64,000 bases of DNA, from assembly GCF_009617995.1 (NCBI RefSeq), contig NZ_CP044130.1:124001-188000 (forward strand), in the 5' to 3' direction. The translations under genes were made by a program, and so were the position numbers. Position 1 is the stretch's first letter; each line of letters starts with the position of its first letter. Below are positions 17,990-50,417 of the stretch, piece after piece. A model generated the notes under the pieces. That model was not told the DNA's origin, ran no database searches, and saw only the letters and a list, made by a program, of their open reading frames with translations. Source of the stretch: Halomicrobium sp. LC1Hm. GTDB lineage: Archaea > Halobacteriota > Halobacteria > Halobacteriales > Haloarculaceae.

Positions 17990-18136
17990 CTACGAGCTCG
18001 GGCCTCCAGTGACGGTCCAGAACAGACTCTCGATGGACTTGCCGAGGAAGTATCCGACGATGGCCCACAGCACGCCACTCTCGACGCCGTACAACCCGAA
18101 CCCGACAGCACTGTACAGCAGCGCGCACGCGATCAC
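17990..18136 (-). pseudogene. Small membrane protein, C-terminal part (other half at 49996)
   Basis: On the minus strand a hydrophobic reading frame, VIACALLYSAVGFGLYG through WAIVGYFLGKSIESLF, ends at the stop at 17990. It has no proper 5' end: upstream it runs straight into the ABC ATPase fragment on the other strand. Its missing N-terminus (MKQSMIDRPVIACA) is found 31.9 kb away at 49996-50036; joining the two through the shared 14-bp sequence gives an intact protein of 57 residues with two membrane helices. An in-frame ATG at 18142 could still allow translation of a 50-residue version. Confidence 0.7.
18123..18136. repeat. 14-bp inversion breakpoint repeat, left copy
   Basis: GCGCACGCGATCAC here is the exact reverse complement of 50023-50036. 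Two different genes change identity precisely at this sequence. Confidence 0.8.
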
Positions 18137-18701
18137 GAACATCCTCCTGCTGGACGAACCCATGACGGGACTGGACGCCAAGCTCAAGGATCGGCTCCGG
18201 CGCGAGATCGGGAGCCTGCTCGACGAGTTGGGCGTCACCGCGCTGTACGTGACCCACGACCAGGAGGAGGCGATGGCGATGTGTGACCGGATCACGGTGC
18301 TGAACGACGGCCGCCTCGAACAGGTCGGCACGCCTCGCGAGATCTACGAGTCGCCCGCAAACGAGTTCGTCGCCGGATTCGTCGGCTCGGCGAATCTGCT
18401 CGACGCACAGCTGGACGACGGCACGGTCGACCTGGGGTTTACGCGCGCGGTCGCGGACGACACGAGCGGGGACGCGACGGTCGTCGTCCGGCCCGACGAC
18501 ATCGCGGTCGGCAGCGGTTCGATCCCGGTGACGATCCGGGAGTACCAGTATCTCGGTGAGACGACCAGCGCTGTCGGGGAGTTGCCCGACGGACGGCAGT
18601 TGCGCTTGCGCCTGAACGGCACCGCCGAGGAGACGACCGTCGGAACCACGGTTTCGGTTGCGATCGACCCCGACGGCGTCGCTGTCGTCGACACCGCCTG
18701 A
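18123..18701 (+). pseudogene. ABC transporter ATPase, C-terminal half (other half at 50023-50417)
   Basis: The frame starts abruptly at AHAITNILLLDEP (Walker B) and continues through the D-loop, the switch histidine (YVTHDQEEAMAM) and a C-terminal TOBE domain (FVGSANLL, VRPDDI) to the stop at 18701. Walker A, the Q-loop and the signature are absent here. They are present on the minus strand at 50023-50417, ending in GGQQQRVGLARAHAIT. Fusing the halves through the 14-bp repeat restores the frame exactly. The family is the CUT1/iron/sulfate/thiamine group with TOBE. It cannot be functional as it stands. Confidence 0.85.
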
Positions 18702-36769: not shown

Positions 36770-37972
36770 TTACCAGAACCGGTCGTGGTGTTCGGTCGCC
36801 CGGACGAGCGCCTCGACGTAGAAGTAGTCTCCCCAGATGCAACACTCGCCGTAGTCGCCGTCCGACGGGTGGTACGCTCCGTCGGTCAACAGCCCGTTGG
36901 ACGCCTCGCCCGCGGTGTAGTGCTCGGTGAGACTGGCCAGCGTCGCCAGCGAGGCGTTGCGGTAGGCCGGGACACGCTCGTCGCCACTGGGGAGCTGTCG
37001 GGAGAGTTCGTCCAGCCCGCAAGCGGCGACGGCGGCGGCCGAGCTGTCGCGGATCGCCGGGTCCGTCGGGGCGTCGAAGTCCCACAGTGGGACGTGGTCG
37101 TCCTCGACGTGTGAGAGGTAGTAGTTCGCGACCTTGGCCGAGAGCCCCGCGTAGGCACCGGTATCGAGGTAGTCGGCGGCGACCGCGTAGCCGTAGATCG
37201 CCCACGTCTGGCCCCGCGACCAGCAGGAGTCGTCGTCGTACCCCTGGGCCGTCTCACCACCCAGAGCCGTCCCGTCCTCGACGTCACACCGGAACGTGTG
37301 AAACGTCGAGGCGTCCGGGCGGACGACGTGGGCGGCGTTCGTGCGGGCGTGAGAGGCCGCGATAGCTCGGTACCGCGGGTCGTCCGTAACCTCGCTGGCC
37401 CAGAACAGCAGCGGGAGGTTCATCATCGTGTCGACGATCATCCGCCCGCGGTTCTCGTCGTCTTCGTCGTCCATGCTCCCCCACGCCTGGAGGAGACCGG
37501 GCGTCTGCCAGTAGCGGTCGGTGAGCAGGTCGGCCCCGCGGAGCGCGATCGATCGGTACCGCTCCTCGTCGGTCAGCCGGTAGCCGGCGACCGCCGACAG
37601 CGTGTACAGAAAGCCCAGATCGTGCGTCTCGACGAGGCCGTCGTCGAGGCGGTGCGCGAACGTCTCCAGTTGTGCCTCGGCGGCGTCTCTGAACCGCCGC
37701 TGGCCGGTCACGTCGTAGGCGACCCAGCACAGTCCGGTCCAGAAGGCGGTCGTCCACCCGTCGGTGTTGTCGGTCGACCCGTAGAGGAGGTCGTCGCTCG
37801 AAGCCGTCGGGAACCGGTCGTAGTACCGATCGAGGTTCTCGCCGATCCGCTTGATCGCGGCCGTCAACGCCTGTTCTAGCTGTTCCTGGCTTCGCTCTGG
37901 CTGGTCGAAGTAGCGGTCGGGAAGCGCCGGTTCGGACACTGCAGCCGCGAGCGCCTGAGGACTTCGGCTCAT
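36770..37972 (-). CDS. GH88 unsaturated glucuronyl hydrolase
   Basis: This 400-residue cytoplasmic enzyme hydrates and cleaves the unsaturated uronic acid left at the non-reducing end by polysaccharide lyases. Both catalytic aspartates of the family are present: Asp118 in THDLGF and Asp181 in IVDTMMNLPLLFWA. The alpha/alpha-barrel motifs GWTTAFWTGLCWVAYD and WSRGQTWAIYGYA are typical. It works directly with the PL8 lyase encoded in the same locus. A GTG five codons upstream is a weaker start. The promoter contains ACAATA-N4-TATTGT. Confidence 0.95.
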   Translation of the reverse strand: MSRSPQALAAAVSEPALPDRYFDQPERSQEQLEQALTAAIKRIGENLDRYYDRFPTASSDDLLYGSTDNTDGWTTAFWTGLCWVAYDVTGQRRFRDAAEAQLETFAHRLDDGLVETHDLGFLYTLSAVAGYRLTDEERYRSIALRGADLLTDRYWQTPGLLQAWGSMDDEDDENRGRMIVDTMMNLPLLFWASEVTDDPRYRAIAASHARTNAAHVVRPDASTFHTFRCDVEDGTALGGETAQGYDDDSCWSRGQTWAIYGYAVAADYLDTGAYAGLSAKVANYYLSHVEDDHVPLWDFDAPTDPAIRDSSAAAVAACGLDELSRQLPSGDERVPAYRNASLATLASLTEHYTAGEASNGLLTDGAYHPSDGDYGECCIWGDYFYVEALVRATEHHDRFW

Positions 37973-38081: not shown

Positions 38082-39452
38082 ATGACAGACCAGAATGCGA
38101 GCAGCGATCGGCGACAGCTACTGAAGGCGCTCGGCACGCTCAGTATCGCAGGTATGGCTGGCTGTATCAGCCAAAGCGGCTCCGACGGGGACGGCTCGGG
38201 CGAGAGCGGAGACGGCTCCACCGACGAGTCCGAGGGCAGCTCCACGGAGGGCGGGGAGGCCACGCCGGTACCGATGGCCGATTCGTTCAGTTTCTGGGAG
38301 CTGAGCAAGACGTGGGGGCCACACATCGAGCGCTACGAGTCCGAGACCGACGCGACGGTCGAACACACGAACATGGGCCCGGACGAACTGCTCGACAACC
38401 TCCAGACGCGACTGCTCTCGGGGACCGGTGCGCCCGACGCCGCGATGGTCGAGTACACCTCGCTCAAGCAGGTCGCAAAGACCGGCGGGCTGCGTGACGT
38501 CTCCGACTGGATCGACGAGGCCGACATCCGCGACGACTTCACGTCGGGGATCTGGGAGGTCGTCAGCGACGGCGACGCGGTGTACGAAGTCCCCTACGAC
38601 ATCGGACCGGCGACGCTGTTCTACCGCAAGGACATCTGGGACGAGCACGGGCTCGACGACGACATCGAGACCTACGACGAGTTCATCGCGGAGGGCAAGA
38701 AGCTCCCGGACGACGTGTCGCTGCTGTCGCTTCCGGGCAACAGCCTCTCGGTGTTCTGGCGGATGATGTACCGCCAGCTCGGCGGCGTCGAGTTCGACGA
38801 GGAAGGCCGACTCGCGTTTGACAACGACAAAGCGGTGCAGGCGATGGCCCAGCTCCAGGAGCTGGCCGACGCCGGCATCACGGACGACACCGCGAGCTGG
38901 AGCCAGCAGTGGTTCGCCGGCTTCAACGAGGGGACCCTCACGGCCTACCTCTCGGGGGCGTGGTTCAGCGGGACGCTGATGTCCTCGATGGACGAGGCGG
39001 CGGGCGACTGGCGGGGCATGAAGATCCCGGCCCTGGAGTCGGGCGGGACCCGTGCGAGCAACATCGGCGGCTCCGGCGTCTGCTTCCCGGCCCAGAACGA
39101 CGAGGCAACGGCACGCCGGGCCTTCGACTTCGTCGTCAACACGACGACCAGCGTCGAGGAGATGGCGAACCTGTTCGCCGAAGAGGGCAACATCAGCGCG
39201 TACATGCCCGCGTGGGACGACGAGGCCTTCGAGAACCCCCGCGAGTTCTTCGGCGGGCAGGCGCTCGGTTCGCTGTGGACCGACATCGCCGACGACATTC
39301 CGCCGTACCGCTACACGCTCGACTCGCCGAAGATCATGAACCTGCTCAACCCGCTCCTGCAGGAGGTCGTCTACGGTGACCTCGATCCCGAGTCGGCACT
39401 GGAGGAGTGGGTCACCCAGTCCGCCAACGAGACCGGGCGTGAAGTCGCCTAA
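38082..39452 (+). CDS. Sugar ABC transporter substrate-binding lipoprotein
   Basis: This 456-residue receptor is for the importer encoded downstream. The N-terminus has SSDRRQLLKALGTLSIAG (twin-arginine) and the lipobox GMAGC, so it is probably exported by Tat and lipid-anchored. After a Ser/Asp/Glu-rich linker comes a bilobal family-1 (MalE/UgpB-like) domain. It is the first gene of a four-gene operon, with 1- to 6-nt gaps. It is divergent from GH88, which suggests that the ligand is an oligosaccharide containing unsaturated uronate. Confidence 0.94.
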   Translation: MTDQNASSDRRQLLKALGTLSIAGMAGCISQSGSDGDGSGESGDGSTDESEGSSTEGGEATPVPMADSFSFWELSKTWGPHIERYESETDATVEHTNMGPDELLDNLQTRLLSGTGAPDAAMVEYTSLKQVAKTGGLRDVSDWIDEADIRDDFTSGIWEVVSDGDAVYEVPYDIGPATLFYRKDIWDEHGLDDDIETYDEFIAEGKKLPDDVSLLSLPGNSLSVFWRMMYRQLGGVEFDEEGRLAFDNDKAVQAMAQLQELADAGITDDTASWSQQWFAGFNEGTLTAYLSGAWFSGTLMSSMDEAAGDWRGMKIPALESGGTRASNIGGSGVCFPAQNDEATARRAFDFVVNTTTSVEEMANLFAEEGNISAYMPAWDDEAFENPREFFGGQALGSLWTDIADDIPPYRYTLDSPKIMNLLNPLLQEVVYGDLDPESALEEWVTQSANETGREVA

Positions 39453-39453
39453 C

Positions 39454-40431
39454 ATGAGCCGCCAGCTGCTCGTTCCGCTGCTCGATCAGGTTCGATTCAA
39501 GCGCGAGCAGTTGAAAGACCGACTCCCGACGCTGCCTGGAACGCCGCTGTTGTTCTTGAGTCCGTTCTTCCTGCTGTTCGGCGTGTTCCTCGCGATTCCG
39601 GTGTTCTACACCTTCTACCTGTCTTTCTTCACGTTCCAGGGCGTCTCGACGGAGGCGCTGTTCGCCATCGACATCGGGGCGTACCAGATCATGATTCCCG
39701 AGATGGCGAACCTCCAGTACGTCGGTCTGGACAACTATCGACGCCTGCTCACCGACAGCGTGTTCTACCAGTCGCTGTTGAACACGGCGATCATCTTCGT
39801 CGTGCAGGTGCCCCTGATGGTCGCGCTGGCACTCGGGCTCGCGCTCGTGTTGAACGCCGCCTACACCAGGTACAAGGGCATCTTCAGGAGTCTCCTGTTG
39901 CTCCCGGTGTCGGCGAACACGGTCGCGTACTCCGCCGTGTTCATCGTGATCGCGGCGGAAGGCGGGATCGCCGACATCGCGCTCGGAGCCGTGGGGATCA
40001 GTCCGATCGACTGGCTCAGCGACGGGTTCTGGGCGCGGAACCTCGTGGCGTTCATGTCGGTGTGGCGCTGGACGGGGTACAACATGATCATCATCCTCGC
40101 CGGGCTACAGACGATCTCGCCGTCGCTGTACGAGGCCGCGGAGATCGGCGGCGCGACGAAGATCCAGAAGTTCCGCCACATCACGCTGCCACAGCTGAAA
40201 CCGATCATGCTGTTCGTCTTCGTGACGACGACGATCGGCGTCTTCAAGAAGTTCGCCGAGCCGATGATCGTCATCAGCTCCGGGGGCCCGATCAACGAGA
40301 CGCGAACGATCGTCTACTACATCTGGCAGGTCGCGTTCCAGAACCTCGAACTGGGCTACGGGAGCGCACTGACCGTCGCCCTCGTGGCGATCATCATGAC
40401 CCTGTCGCTCATCCAATTCAAGGTGTCCTAA
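39454..40431 (+). CDS. Sugar ABC transporter permease (MalF-like)
   Basis: This 325-residue inner-membrane protein starts 1 nt after the receptor stop codon. Six helices are visible. The coupling loop EAAEIGGATKIQKFRHITLPQLKP matches the EAA motif of CUT1 permeases. It forms a heterodimer with the next gene product. Confidence 0.94.
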   Translation: MSRQLLVPLLDQVRFKREQLKDRLPTLPGTPLLFLSPFFLLFGVFLAIPVFYTFYLSFFTFQGVSTEALFAIDIGAYQIMIPEMANLQYVGLDNYRRLLTDSVFYQSLLNTAIIFVVQVPLMVALALGLALVLNAAYTRYKGIFRSLLLLPVSANTVAYSAVFIVIAAEGGIADIALGAVGISPIDWLSDGFWARNLVAFMSVWRWTGYNMIIILAGLQTISPSLYEAAEIGGATKIQKFRHITLPQLKPIMLFVFVTTTIGVFKKFAEPMIVISSGGPINETRTIVYYIWQVAFQNLELGYGSALTVALVAIIMTLSLIQFKVS

Positions 40432-40432
40432 G

Positions 40433-41284
40433 ATGCACGAAAAACTCGAAAAGGAGGCGCTGTGGCAGTTCGGTGGCTACGGGTTCCTCATCGCCGTCAC
40501 GATGGTGATGATGTTCCCCATCTACTGGGTCGTCGTCGCCTCGACGCTGCCACAGTCGGCGATCTTCGCCGGTGGTGCCGGTGAACTGCCGCGGCTGATT
40601 CCGGGGTCGAACTTCCTGGCGAACGCCGAGGCACTCGCCGCCCGTCCGGAAGTCGACTTCTACCGGAGCATGCTCAACAGTCTCGTGATCGCGGTCGTCT
40701 ACACGGGCCTGGCGCTGCTGTTCTGTTCGATGGGCGGCTTCGCGCTGGCGAAGTACGACTTCAAGTACAAGCGGGCGCTGTTCATGGGGATTCTGGGAAC
40801 GCTGTTGCTCCCGACGAATCTGCTGGTGATCCCGCTGTTCCTGCTCGTCTCGAACATGGGTCTGTCGAACAGCTACTGGGCCGTGATCCTCCCGTGGGCC
40901 GCGTATCCGCTGGGGATCTTCTTCATGAAACAGGCGATGCAGTCGATCCCGGACTCGCTGCTCGAAGCCGCACGGATGGACGGCGCGTCGGAGTTTCAGC
41001 TGTACTACCGCGTCGTGCTCCCGTCGATGAAGTCGTCGCTCGCCGCGCTGGCGGTGATCCTGTTTCTCTTCCAGTGGAACCTCTTCCTGTGGCCCCTCGT
41101 GGTGTTGCGCGAAGGGAAGTACACCATCCCGGTGGCCATCTCGAAGATCATGAGCAACGACATGATCGCGTACGACCAGTTGATGGTCGCGTCCGCGATG
41201 GCGATCGTCCCGATGTTCGTGGTGTTCATCCTGCTACAGCGCCACTTCGTAAACGGTATACTCGGCGGAGCAGTCAAGGAGTGA
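40433..41284 (+). CDS. Sugar ABC transporter permease (MalG-like)
   Basis: This is a 283-residue inner-membrane protein with six helices. The EAA motif is LLEAARMDGASEFQLYYRVVLPSMK, given in pieces: LLEAARMDGAS, EFQLYYRVVLP. It starts 1 nt after the partner permease and ends 6 nt before the ATPase gene. Confidence 0.94.
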   Translation: MHEKLEKEALWQFGGYGFLIAVTMVMMFPIYWVVVASTLPQSAIFAGGAGELPRLIPGSNFLANAEALAARPEVDFYRSMLNSLVIAVVYTGLALLFCSMGGFALAKYDFKYKRALFMGILGTLLLPTNLLVIPLFLLVSNMGLSNSYWAVILPWAAYPLGIFFMKQAMQSIPDSLLEAARMDGASEFQLYYRVVLPSMKSSLAALAVILFLFQWNLFLWPLVVLREGKYTIPVAISKIMSNDMIAYDQLMVASAMAIVPMFVVFILLQRHFVNGILGGAVKE

Positions 41285-41290
41285 TACACG

Positions 41291-42412
41291 ATGACAGCAA
41301 TAACTCTCGATGGATTGACGAAGAGCTACGACGCGACTGACATGGACGACATCCCCGACAACGAGATCGTCGCTGTCGAGGACGTCGACCTCGACATCGA
41401 GGACGGCGAGTTCCTCGTCTTCGTCGGCCCGTCGGGCTGTGGGAAGTCGACGACGCTGCGATGTATCGCCGGCCTCGAAGACGCGACCGGCGGAGAGATC
41501 CGGTTCGGTGAGACGGTCGTCAACGACCTCCGGCCGCGGGACCGCGACGTGGCGATGGTGTTCCAGAACTACGCGCTGTACCCCCACATGACGGTCCGGA
41601 AGAACATCAGCTTCGGTCTGCGCCTCTCCTCGACGCTGACGACGCCGGAGATCGACAGTCGGGTCACCGACGTGGCCGAGATGATGGGGATCGAGGACCT
41701 CCTCTCGAAGACGCCTGACGAGCTCTCGGGCGGGCAACAGCAACGCGTCGCGCTCGGGCGCTCGATCGTTCGCGAACCCGGTATCTTCCTGATGGACGAA
41801 CCGCTCTCGAACCTCGACGCGAAGCTCCGGGCGGAGATGCGCACCGAGATCCAGGAGCTCCAGAACGACCTCGGCGTGACGACGGTGTACGTCACCCACG
41901 ACCAGACCGAGGCGATGGCGATGGGCGATCGGATCGCCGTGCTGAACGACGGCCTCCTCCAGCAGGTCGCACCGCCCGAAGAGCTCTATCGGAGTCCCGC
42001 AAACGAGTTCGTCGCCGGCTTCATCGGGAGCCCGAGCATCAACTTCTTCGACGTGAGCGTCGACGGACAGACGCTGACCGACCCGAGTGGCTTCAGCTAC
42101 GAACTCGAAGCCCACAGCGTCGAGGACGACACCGCCCGCCTCGGGATCCGTCCGGAAGACCTGACGATCGAAGAGGGCGGCGACGACATGACCGTCACCG
42201 TCGTCGAGAAGATGGGCAACGAGAACTTCATCTACGGCACCGTCGGCGACACGGAGGTCGTCGCCCGGACCGAGGTGACCGTTCGCCCGGAGCCCGGCCA
42301 GCGGGTCGGTCTCTCCTTCGCCGAGTCGGCGATGTACCTCTTCGAGAGCGAAACCGGCGCGGCGATCAAGACCAAGACCGACGAGATCGAACCGCAGGCG
42401 GCGCAGTTCTAA
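41291..42412 (+). CDS. Sugar ABC transporter ATP-binding protein (MalK/UgpC-like)
   Basis: This 373-residue cytoplasmic ATPase has Walker A VGPSGCGKST, Q-loop VFQNYALYPHMTV, signature LSGGQQQRVALGRS, Walker B IFLMDEPLSNLD and the switch YVTHDQTEAMAM, followed by a TOBE domain from about residue 240. It is last in the importer operon. Unlike the broken ABC ATPase at 18.1/50.0 kb, all motifs are intact. Confidence 0.95.
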   Translation: MTAITLDGLTKSYDATDMDDIPDNEIVAVEDVDLDIEDGEFLVFVGPSGCGKSTTLRCIAGLEDATGGEIRFGETVVNDLRPRDRDVAMVFQNYALYPHMTVRKNISFGLRLSSTLTTPEIDSRVTDVAEMMGIEDLLSKTPDELSGGQQQRVALGRSIVREPGIFLMDEPLSNLDAKLRAEMRTEIQELQNDLGVTTVYVTHDQTEAMAMGDRIAVLNDGLLQQVAPPEELYRSPANEFVAGFIGSPSINFFDVSVDGQTLTDPSGFSYELEAHSVEDDTARLGIRPEDLTIEEGGDDMTVTVVEKMGNENFIYGTVGDTEVVARTEVTVRPEPGQRVGLSFAESAMYLFESETGAAIKTKTDEIEPQAAQF

Positions 42413-42626: not shown

Positions 42627-45910
<3,284 letters not shown>

Positions 45911-45956: not shown

Positions 45957-47885
45957 ATGTCTGACGGCTGGTCGCGCCGCTCGGTACTCAAGTCCAGTCT
46001 GGGACTCTCGCTGGCCGGTGTCTCGCTGTCTGGCACGACCGAGACGGTGACCGGAGCGAGCGAGTACGAGACGCTCAGACAGCGGTGGGCACAGTTGCTC
46101 ACCGGTGGCGACTTCGACGCGACACAGTTCGAGTATCAGGATCCGCTGGCCGAACTGGACGAGACGGCACAGGACCACTGGGAGACGATGGACACCAGCG
46201 CCGACCGTGATCGGCTCTGGTCCGATCTCCCGATCCCGGCGTCGTCCAGCGCGAGCGCGAGCGAGAGCAACATCACCGACAGCTACGGCCGCCTCCAGGA
46301 GATGGCCATGGCCTACGCCACGAACGGGAGTTCACTGGAGGACGATAGCGCGCTCGTGGCAGACATCGTCGACGGACTCGACTTCCTCTACGATCGGGTC
46401 TACAACGAGGACCAGTCCCAGTTTGGCAACTGGTGGCACTGGGAGATCGGCTCGCCGATGCGTCTCGTCAGTGTCTGTGCGCTGGTCGGCGACGAGCTGT
46501 CCTCGACACAGGAGACGAACTACACGAACGCCGTCGGCGCTCACACCGGAACGCCCTACGAGTACACGGAGTACGACGTGACGAGTGGCGGTGCCAACCG
46601 CGTCGACATGTGTATCATCACCGCGCTCCGTGGCGCGATCTCGGGGACGGACTCGACGATCGCTCTCGCCCGAGACTGCATCGAAGAGAGCGATATCTTC
46701 CAGTACAACACCAGCGGCGGCGGGAACGGCCTCTACCGCGACGGGTCGTACGTCTACCACAAAGAGATACCCTATATCGGGTCGTACGGTGCGATCCTGC
46801 TCGAAGGGCTCGGTGAACTGTTCACCGTCCTCGACGGGACGACCTGGGAGATCACGGACGTCGACCACGACGTGATCTACGACGCCGTCGGTGACGCGGT
46901 CGCCCCGTTCATGTACAGAGGGCTGATGATGGACGCGGTCAGCGGCCGGTCGATCTCGCGGGCCGACCAGACCGACCACGTACGCGGCCACGGCATCACC
47001 GCGACCGTCCTTCGGCTGGCGAACACCGCACCGGAACCCTACGCCAGCGAGTTCCGGTCACTCGCCAAGGGCTGGATCGAGAACGACACGTGGGACAGTT
47101 TCCTGAGCGATGCAGACGTGCCCGACATCGCGAACGCGACGGCAGTCCTCGACGATTCGACGATCAGTGCCGCCGACGAACCGGTCCGACACGACGTGTT
47201 CCACAACATGGACCGGGTCGTACACAACCGCTCTGAGTGGGCCTACACGATCAGCATGTGCTCGGAGCGGATCGCACGCTACGAGGCGATCAACGAGGAG
47301 AACCTCCGTGGCTGGTACACCGGTGCCGGGATGACCCAGCTGTACAACGACGACCTCGGCCACTACACCGACGGCTACTGGCCGACCGTCGACCCCTACC
47401 GGCTCCCCGGAACGACCGTCGACACCCGCGAGCGGTCCACTCTCGACGGCACTCACCACCCACGACCGTCGACACAGTGGGTCGGCGGCGCGTCGGTCGA
47501 CGAGTTCGGGATCGCCGGAATGGAGTTCGACGCCGAGGGTGCATCACTCACCGGCAAGAAGTCATGGCTGCACCTCGACGATACCGTCGTCGCACTCGGT
47601 GCCGACATCACCAGCTCCGACGGCCGCCCGATCGAGACCACCGTCGAGAACCGGAATCTCCACACGGACGGAAGCGAGACGCTCACCGTCGACGACACCG
47701 AGAAGTCCACGACACCGGACTGGTCCGAGACGCTCACCGACGTGTCCTGGGCGCACCTCGACGGCGTCGGTGGCTACCTGTTCCCGAACCAGCCGACCCT
47801 CGAAGCCAAGCGCGAGGAACGCACCGGTTCCTGGCAGGAGATCAACGCGGGCGGACCGAGCGAGTCGCTGACCCGCGAGTACTAG
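45957..47885 (+). CDS. Polysaccharide lyase family 8 (hyaluronan/chondroitin/xanthan lyase-like), ended early by TAG
   Basis: The gene starts at the ATG at 45957 with WSRRSVLKSSLGLSLAG, a Tat signal. The alpha/alpha-toroid domain carries the aromatic patch NWWHWE (158-163), the catalytic Asn214 (GGANRVD), and His268 and Tyr277 (YHKEIPYIGSY), followed by SGRSISR. Elimination leaves a 4,5-unsaturated uronic acid, the GH88 substrate. Codon 643 is TAG, yet the same frame continues with TLWLDHGVDPSAETYAYALLPG, a conserved PL8 strand, for a further 488 codons. It is therefore a truncated lyase, a pseudogene, or a gene read through; exported by Tat if made. Confidence 0.85.
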   Translation: MSDGWSRRSVLKSSLGLSLAGVSLSGTTETVTGASEYETLRQRWAQLLTGGDFDATQFEYQDPLAELDETAQDHWETMDTSADRDRLWSDLPIPASSSASASESNITDSYGRLQEMAMAYATNGSSLEDDSALVADIVDGLDFLYDRVYNEDQSQFGNWWHWEIGSPMRLVSVCALVGDELSSTQETNYTNAVGAHTGTPYEYTEYDVTSGGANRVDMCIITALRGAISGTDSTIALARDCIEESDIFQYNTSGGGNGLYRDGSYVYHKEIPYIGSYGAILLEGLGELFTVLDGTTWEITDVDHDVIYDAVGDAVAPFMYRGLMMDAVSGRSISRADQTDHVRGHGITATVLRLANTAPEPYASEFRSLAKGWIENDTWDSFLSDADVPDIANATAVLDDSTISAADEPVRHDVFHNMDRVVHNRSEWAYTISMCSERIARYEAINEENLRGWYTGAGMTQLYNDDLGHYTDGYWPTVDPYRLPGTTVDTRERSTLDGTHHPRPSTQWVGGASVDEFGIAGMEFDAEGASLTGKKSWLHLDDTVVALGADITSSDGRPIETTVENRNLHTDGSETLTVDDTEKSTTPDWSETLTDVSWAHLDGVGGYLFPNQPTLEAKREERTGSWQEINAGGPSESLTREY

Positions 47886-49352
47886 ACCCTCTGGCTCGAC
47901 CACGGTGTCGATCCCAGCGCCGAGACGTACGCGTACGCACTGCTCCCGGGCCACACTGCGTCCGAGACGCGACAGCGGAGTCAGGAGCCCGGCTTCGAGA
48001 TCGTCGCCAACGACGCCACGGTCCAGGCCGTCACGGTGCCACGCCTGGGGTTGACAGCCGCCAACTTCTGGAGTAGCGGTTCGATCACGGTCCCCGGCTC
48101 CGAGCGGACGCTCTCGGTGAGCGGCCCGGCAGCCGTCGTCGTCAGACACCGCAACGACGAACTCGTGATCGGCGTCGCCGACCCCTCCCGAACACAGGAG
48201 ACGGTCACCGTCGAGTACGAGCACTACACGGACGGAATCGTCAGTACAGACTCGGCGGTCGGCGTCACGCAGTTCCGGCCAGGTGTCACGATGGAGGTCG
48301 CCGTCGGCGGCACTCGCGGTGCGACTCACTCGGCGACCTTCGACGCTCCCGTCACGGAGCTCTCACCGCGTGCAGACACGTTCGTCCGGGACGGGTCGTA
48401 CTCCGGTGACAACTACGGTTCGTGGTCCTCGTTGGTCGTCAAAGGCGGTCCGACGGGTTACAGCAGAGAGTCGTATCTCGCGTTCGACCTGGCGTCAGTC
48501 GCGGGCGAGGTACAGGAGGCCGTGCTCGACGTGTACGGCGCGGTCACCGACGACAACGGCGGAGCGTCCGTCGACTGTACGGTCGCCGCCGTCGACGACG
48601 ACAGCTGGACGGAGGACGGACTCACCTGGGACACGAAACCCGATCTGGGCTCGTCGCTGGGCTCTCTGACCGTCACGCGGGAACGGCGCTGGTGGCGCGA
48701 AGACGTGACCGAGTTCGTACAGACAGCGGCCAGCGGTGACGGTATCGCCAGCGTCGCACTCCGGCAACCGAACGACGAGCGCTACGCCAGCTTCGACAGC
48801 CGGGAGGCAGACGAGAACCCGCCGTCGCTGCGCGTCACGACCAGTCGCCCCGACACGACGGCGCTCACCCCGACGGCCGACACGTTCGTCCGGGACGGGT
48901 CGTACTCCGGTGACAACTACGGATCGTGGTCGTCGCTGGTCGTCAAGAACGCGGCGACCGACTACAGTCGACAGGGGTATCTCACCTTCGACCTGAGCGC
49001 GCTGTCGGGTTCGATCGACGAGGCCGTGCTCTACCTCTACGGCGCGGTCACCGACGACAGCGGCGGAGATGCCGTCGACTGTGCAATCAACGCCGTCGGC
49101 GACGACAGCTGGACGGAGAGCGGACTCACCTGGGACACGAAACCCGATCTGGGCTCGGCACTCGGTTCGGTGACCGTCACCCGGACGCCGCAGTGGTGGA
49201 CCGTCGACGTGACCGAGTTCGTCCAATCGGAGGCCGGCGGCGATGGCGTCGTCAGTCTGGCCGTCCAGCAGCCACAGAGCGGCCTGTACACCGACTTCAA
49301 CAGCCGAGACGCCGACGAGAAGGTGCCGACGCTTCGGGTACAGACCTCGTAG
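47886..49352 (+). pseudogene. C-terminal part of the PL8 lyase with two DNRLRE/CBM96-like modules
   Basis: This is the same frame as the lyase, after the TAG at 47883. First come the remaining PL8 beta domains (TLWLDHG... VQAVTVPRLGLTAANFW). Then two modules of 168 residues, each beginning with TFVRDGSYSGDNYGSWSSLV and ending with SLRVTTS or TLRVQTS, are of the DNRLRE type found as carbohydrate-binding domains in secreted enzymes. It has no start codon of its own near the TAG (first ATG at 48036), so independent translation is doubtful. Confidence 0.75.
48377..49349 (+). repeat. Two tandem 504-bp coding repeats (DNRLRE modules)
   Basis: The DNA at 48377-48440 and 48881-48944 is nearly identical (the run CACGTTCGTCCGGGACGGGT and more), as are segments near 48597 and 49101. 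The offset is 504 bp, 168 codons. The central parts are more diverged, indicating duplication followed by local gene conversion or selection. Confidence 0.75.
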
Positions 49353-49995: not shown

Positions 49996-50036
49996 ATGAA
50001 GCAATCGATGATCGACCGGCCGGTGATCGCGTGCGC
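49996..50036 (+). pseudogene. Small membrane protein, N-terminal fragment (other half at 17990-18136)
   Basis: ATG at 49996 opens MKQSMIDRPVIACA and then runs, at the 14-bp repeat, into the antisense of an ABC ATPase fragment. Joined to LLYSAVGFGLYG and onward at 18122-17990 it gives an intact 57-residue membrane protein. Confidence 0.65.
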
Positions 50037-50417
50037 ACGCGCCAGGCCGACCCGCTGTTGTTGCCCGCCCGAGAGGGTCTCGGGCGCTCTGTCGGCGAGT
50101 TCGGCGATGTCGAGTAGCTCCACAGCTCTGTGGCGCGGTCCCGTCGCTCGGCCTTCTCGACGCCCTGCATCTTCGGACCGAACGCGACGTTCGCGAGGAC
50201 GCTCATGTTGTCGAACAGCGCGTACGACTGGAACACGAGCCCGACGTTTCGCCGCTCTGGGGGGACGTGGGTCACGTCCTCGTCGGCGAATCGGACCCGG
50301 CCGGCCGTCGGCGTCTCGAAGCCGGCGATCGTCCGCAGCGTCGTCGTCTTGCCACAGCCCGACGGCCCGACGACGCCGAGGATCTCGCCCTCGGCGACGG
50401 TCAGATCGACTGTCTCG
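50023..50417 (-). pseudogene. ABC transporter ATPase, N-terminal half (other half at 18123-18701)
   Basis: On the minus strand: TVAEGEILGVVGPSGCGKTT (Walker A), FETPTAGRVRF, RRNVGLVFQSYALF (Q-loop), RRDRATEL, then after a frameshift VELLDIAELADRAPETLSGG and QQQRVGLARAHAIT (signature), where the similarity stops at the 14-bp repeat. Two further lesions: one base is missing near 50124 between RATEL and VELL, and the first about 20 residues are missing because the frame emerges directly from the 3' end of proA without a start codon. The gene was therefore decaying in several ways. Confidence 0.8.

Follow-up and report, generated by a model that had tools for sequence, protein, structure and literature searches.

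In the haloarchaeon Halomicrobium sp. LC1Hm, a plasmid gene for a secreted polysaccharide lyase of family PL8 is interrupted by an in-frame TAG codon, which we consider, with good confidence, to be a recent nonsense mutation. The window in which it was found is a stretch of 64,000 nucleotides on the smaller of the two replicons of this genome (3,105,114 + 223,917 bp). In the proposed course of events, a C-to-T change would have turned a glutamine codon, CAG, into TAG in an intact lyase that had been under purifying selection. Translation would then end after 642 residues, giving a product that keeps the catalytic residues but is cut short within the super-sandwich domain, whose last strands are missing along with the C-terminal domain and the two CBM96 modules. 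The strain would thereby be deprived of the initial step, outside the cell, of a uronic-acid polysaccharide locus whose other genes are intact. The mutation is an ordinary broken gene and nothing unusual in kind. The features concerned are collected in Table 1.

Table 1. The interrupted lyase gene and its neighbours (positions in the window).
Feature	Position	Strand	Remarks
GH88 unsaturated glucuronyl hydrolase-like gene	36773..37972	-	the only GH88 gene of the genome; intact
Sugar ABC transporter: solute-binding protein, two permeases, ATPase	38082..42409	+	intact
GH2 beta-galactosidase/glucuronidase-type hydrolase	42629..45727	-	divergent from the lyase gene; intact
PL8 lyase gene, open part	45957..47882	+	gives 642 aa if the TAG terminates
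In-frame TAG	47883..47885	+	CAG (Gln643) in H. mukohataei and H. katesii
Remainder, untranslated if the TAG terminates	47886..49352	+	last super-sandwich strands, Lyase_8_C, two CBM96, stop TAG

The reading frame begins with the ATG at 45957 and closes with the TAG at 49350-49352. Its single interruption, the TAG at 47883-47885, leaves 642 codons before it and 488 after it. An earlier sequence-only reading had placed an in-frame amber codon here, with LTREY before it and TLWLDHGVDPSAETYAYALLPG after it, and had seen no frameshift; coordinates and frame are correct, and both full-length orthologs align gap-free. Upstream of the stop the Pfam profiles identify Lyase_8_N (the alpha domain) and then Lyase_8 (profile positions 1-229 of 254), and in the 488 residues downstream they identify Lyase_8_C and two CBM96 modules. 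When the TAG is read through, the Lyase_8 match spans the stop and reaches profile position 253 of 254, and Lyase_8_N, Lyase_8 and Lyase_8_C follow in order, each above its Pfam cut-off. The residues before the stop include a Tat-type (twin-arginine) signal, SRRSVLK, which together with the Pfam domains bears out the description of the gene as one for a secreted PL8 lyase with two binding modules. That a truncated product would be without the remaining part of the beta domain and without either carbohydrate-binding module was also correctly foreseen. Chance can be set aside, because in the orthologs a single protein comprises the two halves. The two CBM96 modules (48372-48842 and 48876-49349) share about 78% DNA identity and represent a duplication within the gene that the relatives have too.

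The closest relatives of the gene are those on plasmid pHmuk01 of H. mukohataei (HMUK_RS15630, WP_012807407) and in H. katesii, with 95.8% and 96.1% DNA identity, respectively, no indels, the same domain order and about 97% protein identity to both. The pHmuk01 gene also has the same GH88, ABC transporter and GH2 neighbours. Both orthologs differ from the window in having CAG at codon 643, and both encode the full length of 1131 aa. With a sense codon opposite it in both close orthologs, the stop is most simply explained as the derived state, reached in the window lineage by one C-to-T transition. Residue 643 itself varies: homologs have Q, L or V there, and xanthan lyase has E. Its neighbours Tyr642 and Thr644 are invariant in a five-sequence alignment.

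Before the stop, the window branch has 7 nonsynonymous codon changes against 35 synonymous ones; after it, the figures are 14 and 38. The relatives' own branches, with 8/13 and 6/10 after the stop position, show constraint no stronger than that of the window. By a simple binomial bound, the unconstrained share of the window branch is at most 2-13%, depending on the background ratio that is assumed. Relaxed constraint after the stop, expected only of an old pseudogene, was not seen on the window branch, in agreement with the earlier remark that no decay is visible past the stop. Because the substitutions show no such decay, the stop would be either very recent or a base-calling error. The sequence-only reading had offered a recent change, a sequencing error and read-through; the first has become the best supported, the second is less likely, and the third is contradicted by the results given below. 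A window-specific Glu-to-Lys change lies at codon 269 (46761-46763), immediately after the presumed catalytic His268.

If the assembly or the base calling were in error, the lyase of the strain would be intact, with a sense codon at this place. The features that mark a young mutation are also those of such an error: a single base is involved, the downstream codons show no decay, and both relatives have a sense codon. A lone C-to-T change is, however, also common among real nonsense changes, and among 112 orthologs of annotated pHmuk01 genes on the window's plasmid no other than the lyase contains an internal stop; the few genes matched only in part seem to be rearranged, divergent or incomplete. 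No internal stop was confirmed in a chromosomal sample of 200 kb set against its H. mukohataei counterpart; two candidates with stops in mid-ORF were rejected as start-extension artefacts, reading as upstream extensions of the ORFs. A greedy comparison of ORFs, run on chromosome and plasmid, gave many false internal stops, mostly from antisense ORFs; after a filter for codon composition, most of the remaining cases other than PL8 lay close to the beginning of the ORF, whose start codon had probably been placed too far upstream. Since the assembly thus looks clean, a real mutation is favoured, and we regard an error at this base as unlikely. A real stop might still leave a functional shortened lyase, secreted and active in its 642-aa form without the C-terminal beta part and the binding modules. 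N214, H268, Y277, R331 and R335, which match the known catalytic positions of PL8 enzymes, are invariant in the homolog alignment, present in the window and all located upstream of the stop. The strong constraint before the stop (7 to 35 on the window branch) also fits a shortened enzyme, but the time before the mutation fully accounts for it. Moreover, all PL8 homologs compared, including those of solved structure, run through the interrupted strand into the C-terminal beta domain. The 642-aa product is probably misfolded, unstable or inactive, because the stop falls within the super-sandwich domain and not at a domain border; an active short form is accordingly given little credence. Back-up by another copy was rejected, as the interrupted gene is the only PL8 gene in the whole genome.

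Decoding of the TAG by a suppressor tRNA, as pyrrolysine or by programmed read-through would allow the full-length enzyme to be made, and the frame after the stop is indeed open and constrained. The search for suppressor tRNAs or pylS that had been suggested earlier was run, and it yielded neither a tRNA with a CUA anticodon nor PylS above the cut-off. A whole-genome search with PylS_Cterm gave two weak matches only, far below the curated cut-off, and PylS_Cterm matches, one of them above the cut-off, were also obtained in 13 of 14 control genomes. Pyrrolysine was rejected on these grounds, the matches being below the cut-off and similarly weak ones occurring in nearly all controls. No CUA anticodon is present among the 44 tRNAs detected, of which ARAGORN typed 42. 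The other two were read by eye: one is an intron-containing tRNA-Arg(UCU) and the other is without a CTA triplet, and with both accounted for a suppressor tRNA was likewise rejected. A tRNA-like sequence at 1309440-1309539 of chromosome C1 (Rfam score 43 bits) contains a 41-nt insert, has the loop ACTCCAGCAC and was not called by ARAGORN.

The machinery of termination is also ordinary. The gene for aRF1 is complete in the genome, and in filtered samples TAG is the terminator of 24 of the 91 ORFs from the plasmid and of 31 of the 112 from the chromosome (~26-28%). Because TAG ends about a quarter of genes, general decoding of this codon would damage many proteins. The in-frame TAG is not conserved as pyrrolysine or suppression would have it, the relatives carrying CAG, and no known RNA element was found around the stop. 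Read-through as a function is therefore not supported, and decoding in any of these forms seems more doubtful than an active short form. Low basal misreading by tRNA-Gln may still occur and would insert the ancestral residue. That near-cognate glutamine misreading of UAG provides a useful amount of full-length lyase, the haloarchaeon tolerating an amber codon in a secreted enzyme, is the most improbable proposal considered here.

A recent nonsense mutation in the lyase has a bearing on published growth experiments. The PL8 gene of Halomicrobium sp. LC1Hm is located on plasmid pLC1Hm-01, and neither hyaluronate nor chondroitin allowed the strain to grow; from this failure and the domain architecture, another specificity was inferred for the PL8 enzymes of Halomicrobium (PMC13260240). 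The interruption of the PL8 gene may be a sufficient and simpler reason for the growth failure than a different specificity. The negative result of this 2026 paper would then have come from a strain in which the sole PL8 gene is interrupted, and it would say nothing on the specificity of the intact enzymes of H. mukohataei and H. katesii, which remain candidate glycosaminoglycan lyases. The general interest of the mutation is low, and its practical use lies in the interpretation of this negative growth test. A 'hyaluronate lyase' of LC1Hm, QGA84466, has been cited with a DNRLRE/CBM96 domain (PMC9971899). This entry may be the full-length protein, or the downstream fragment only, and is a possible counter-sign to a broken lyase.

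To judge from the gene content, the surroundings of the lyase look like a locus for a uronic-acid polysaccharide that has lost its extracellular lyase. Comparable enzymes include the glycosaminoglycan lyases of the H-hyl isolates and a putative PL8 protein of Haloarcula marina YSSS71, which likewise have a PL8 subfamily 1-like catalytic module and are plasmid-borne; in the H-hyl isolates the lyase gene is near GH88 and transporter genes, as in the window (PMC13260240). The Har. marina protein is about 40% identical to the window lyase and differs in its C-terminal modules. At 804-823 aa, the H-hyl enzymes are the shorter ones, and hyaluronate supports the growth of their strains (PMC13260240). 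By sequence, the closest solved structures are those of Bacillus xanthan lyase (PDB 2e24, 1j0m, 1x1h) and a Streptomyces PL8 enzyme (2wco), and the alignment to them spans the whole catalytic region. The arginine of xanthan lyase that was changed between 2e22 and 2e24, taken as Arg612 and presumably in contact with the pyruvylated mannose, falls opposite a gap in the Halomicrobium protein, and for this reason xanthan need not be the substrate.

The plasmid also differs from pHmuk01 in gene content and arrangement. At 75% identity, 58 of the 170 annotated pHmuk01 genes are without a counterpart on the window's plasmid, among them genes for siderophore synthesis and ribonucleotide reductase. The number of GH18 (chitinase) genes, by contrast, is equal in the three Halomicrobium genomes and does not set the strain apart. 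The segment 18123-50036 of the window (~31.9 kb) is inverted relative to pHmuk01, which H. katesii matches around the lyase-side junction. The two junctions, 18123-18134 and 50025-50036, have GCGCACGCGATCAC in common in opposite orientation. Through the inversion, an ABC transporter ATPase gene orthologous to HMUK_RS16380 is broken up, with parts at 18123-18701 and at 50025-50409, and the remainder of its operon (pHmuk01 198339-201459) is absent near 50400. The interrupted lyase gene lies 0.7 kb from the right junction of the inversion.
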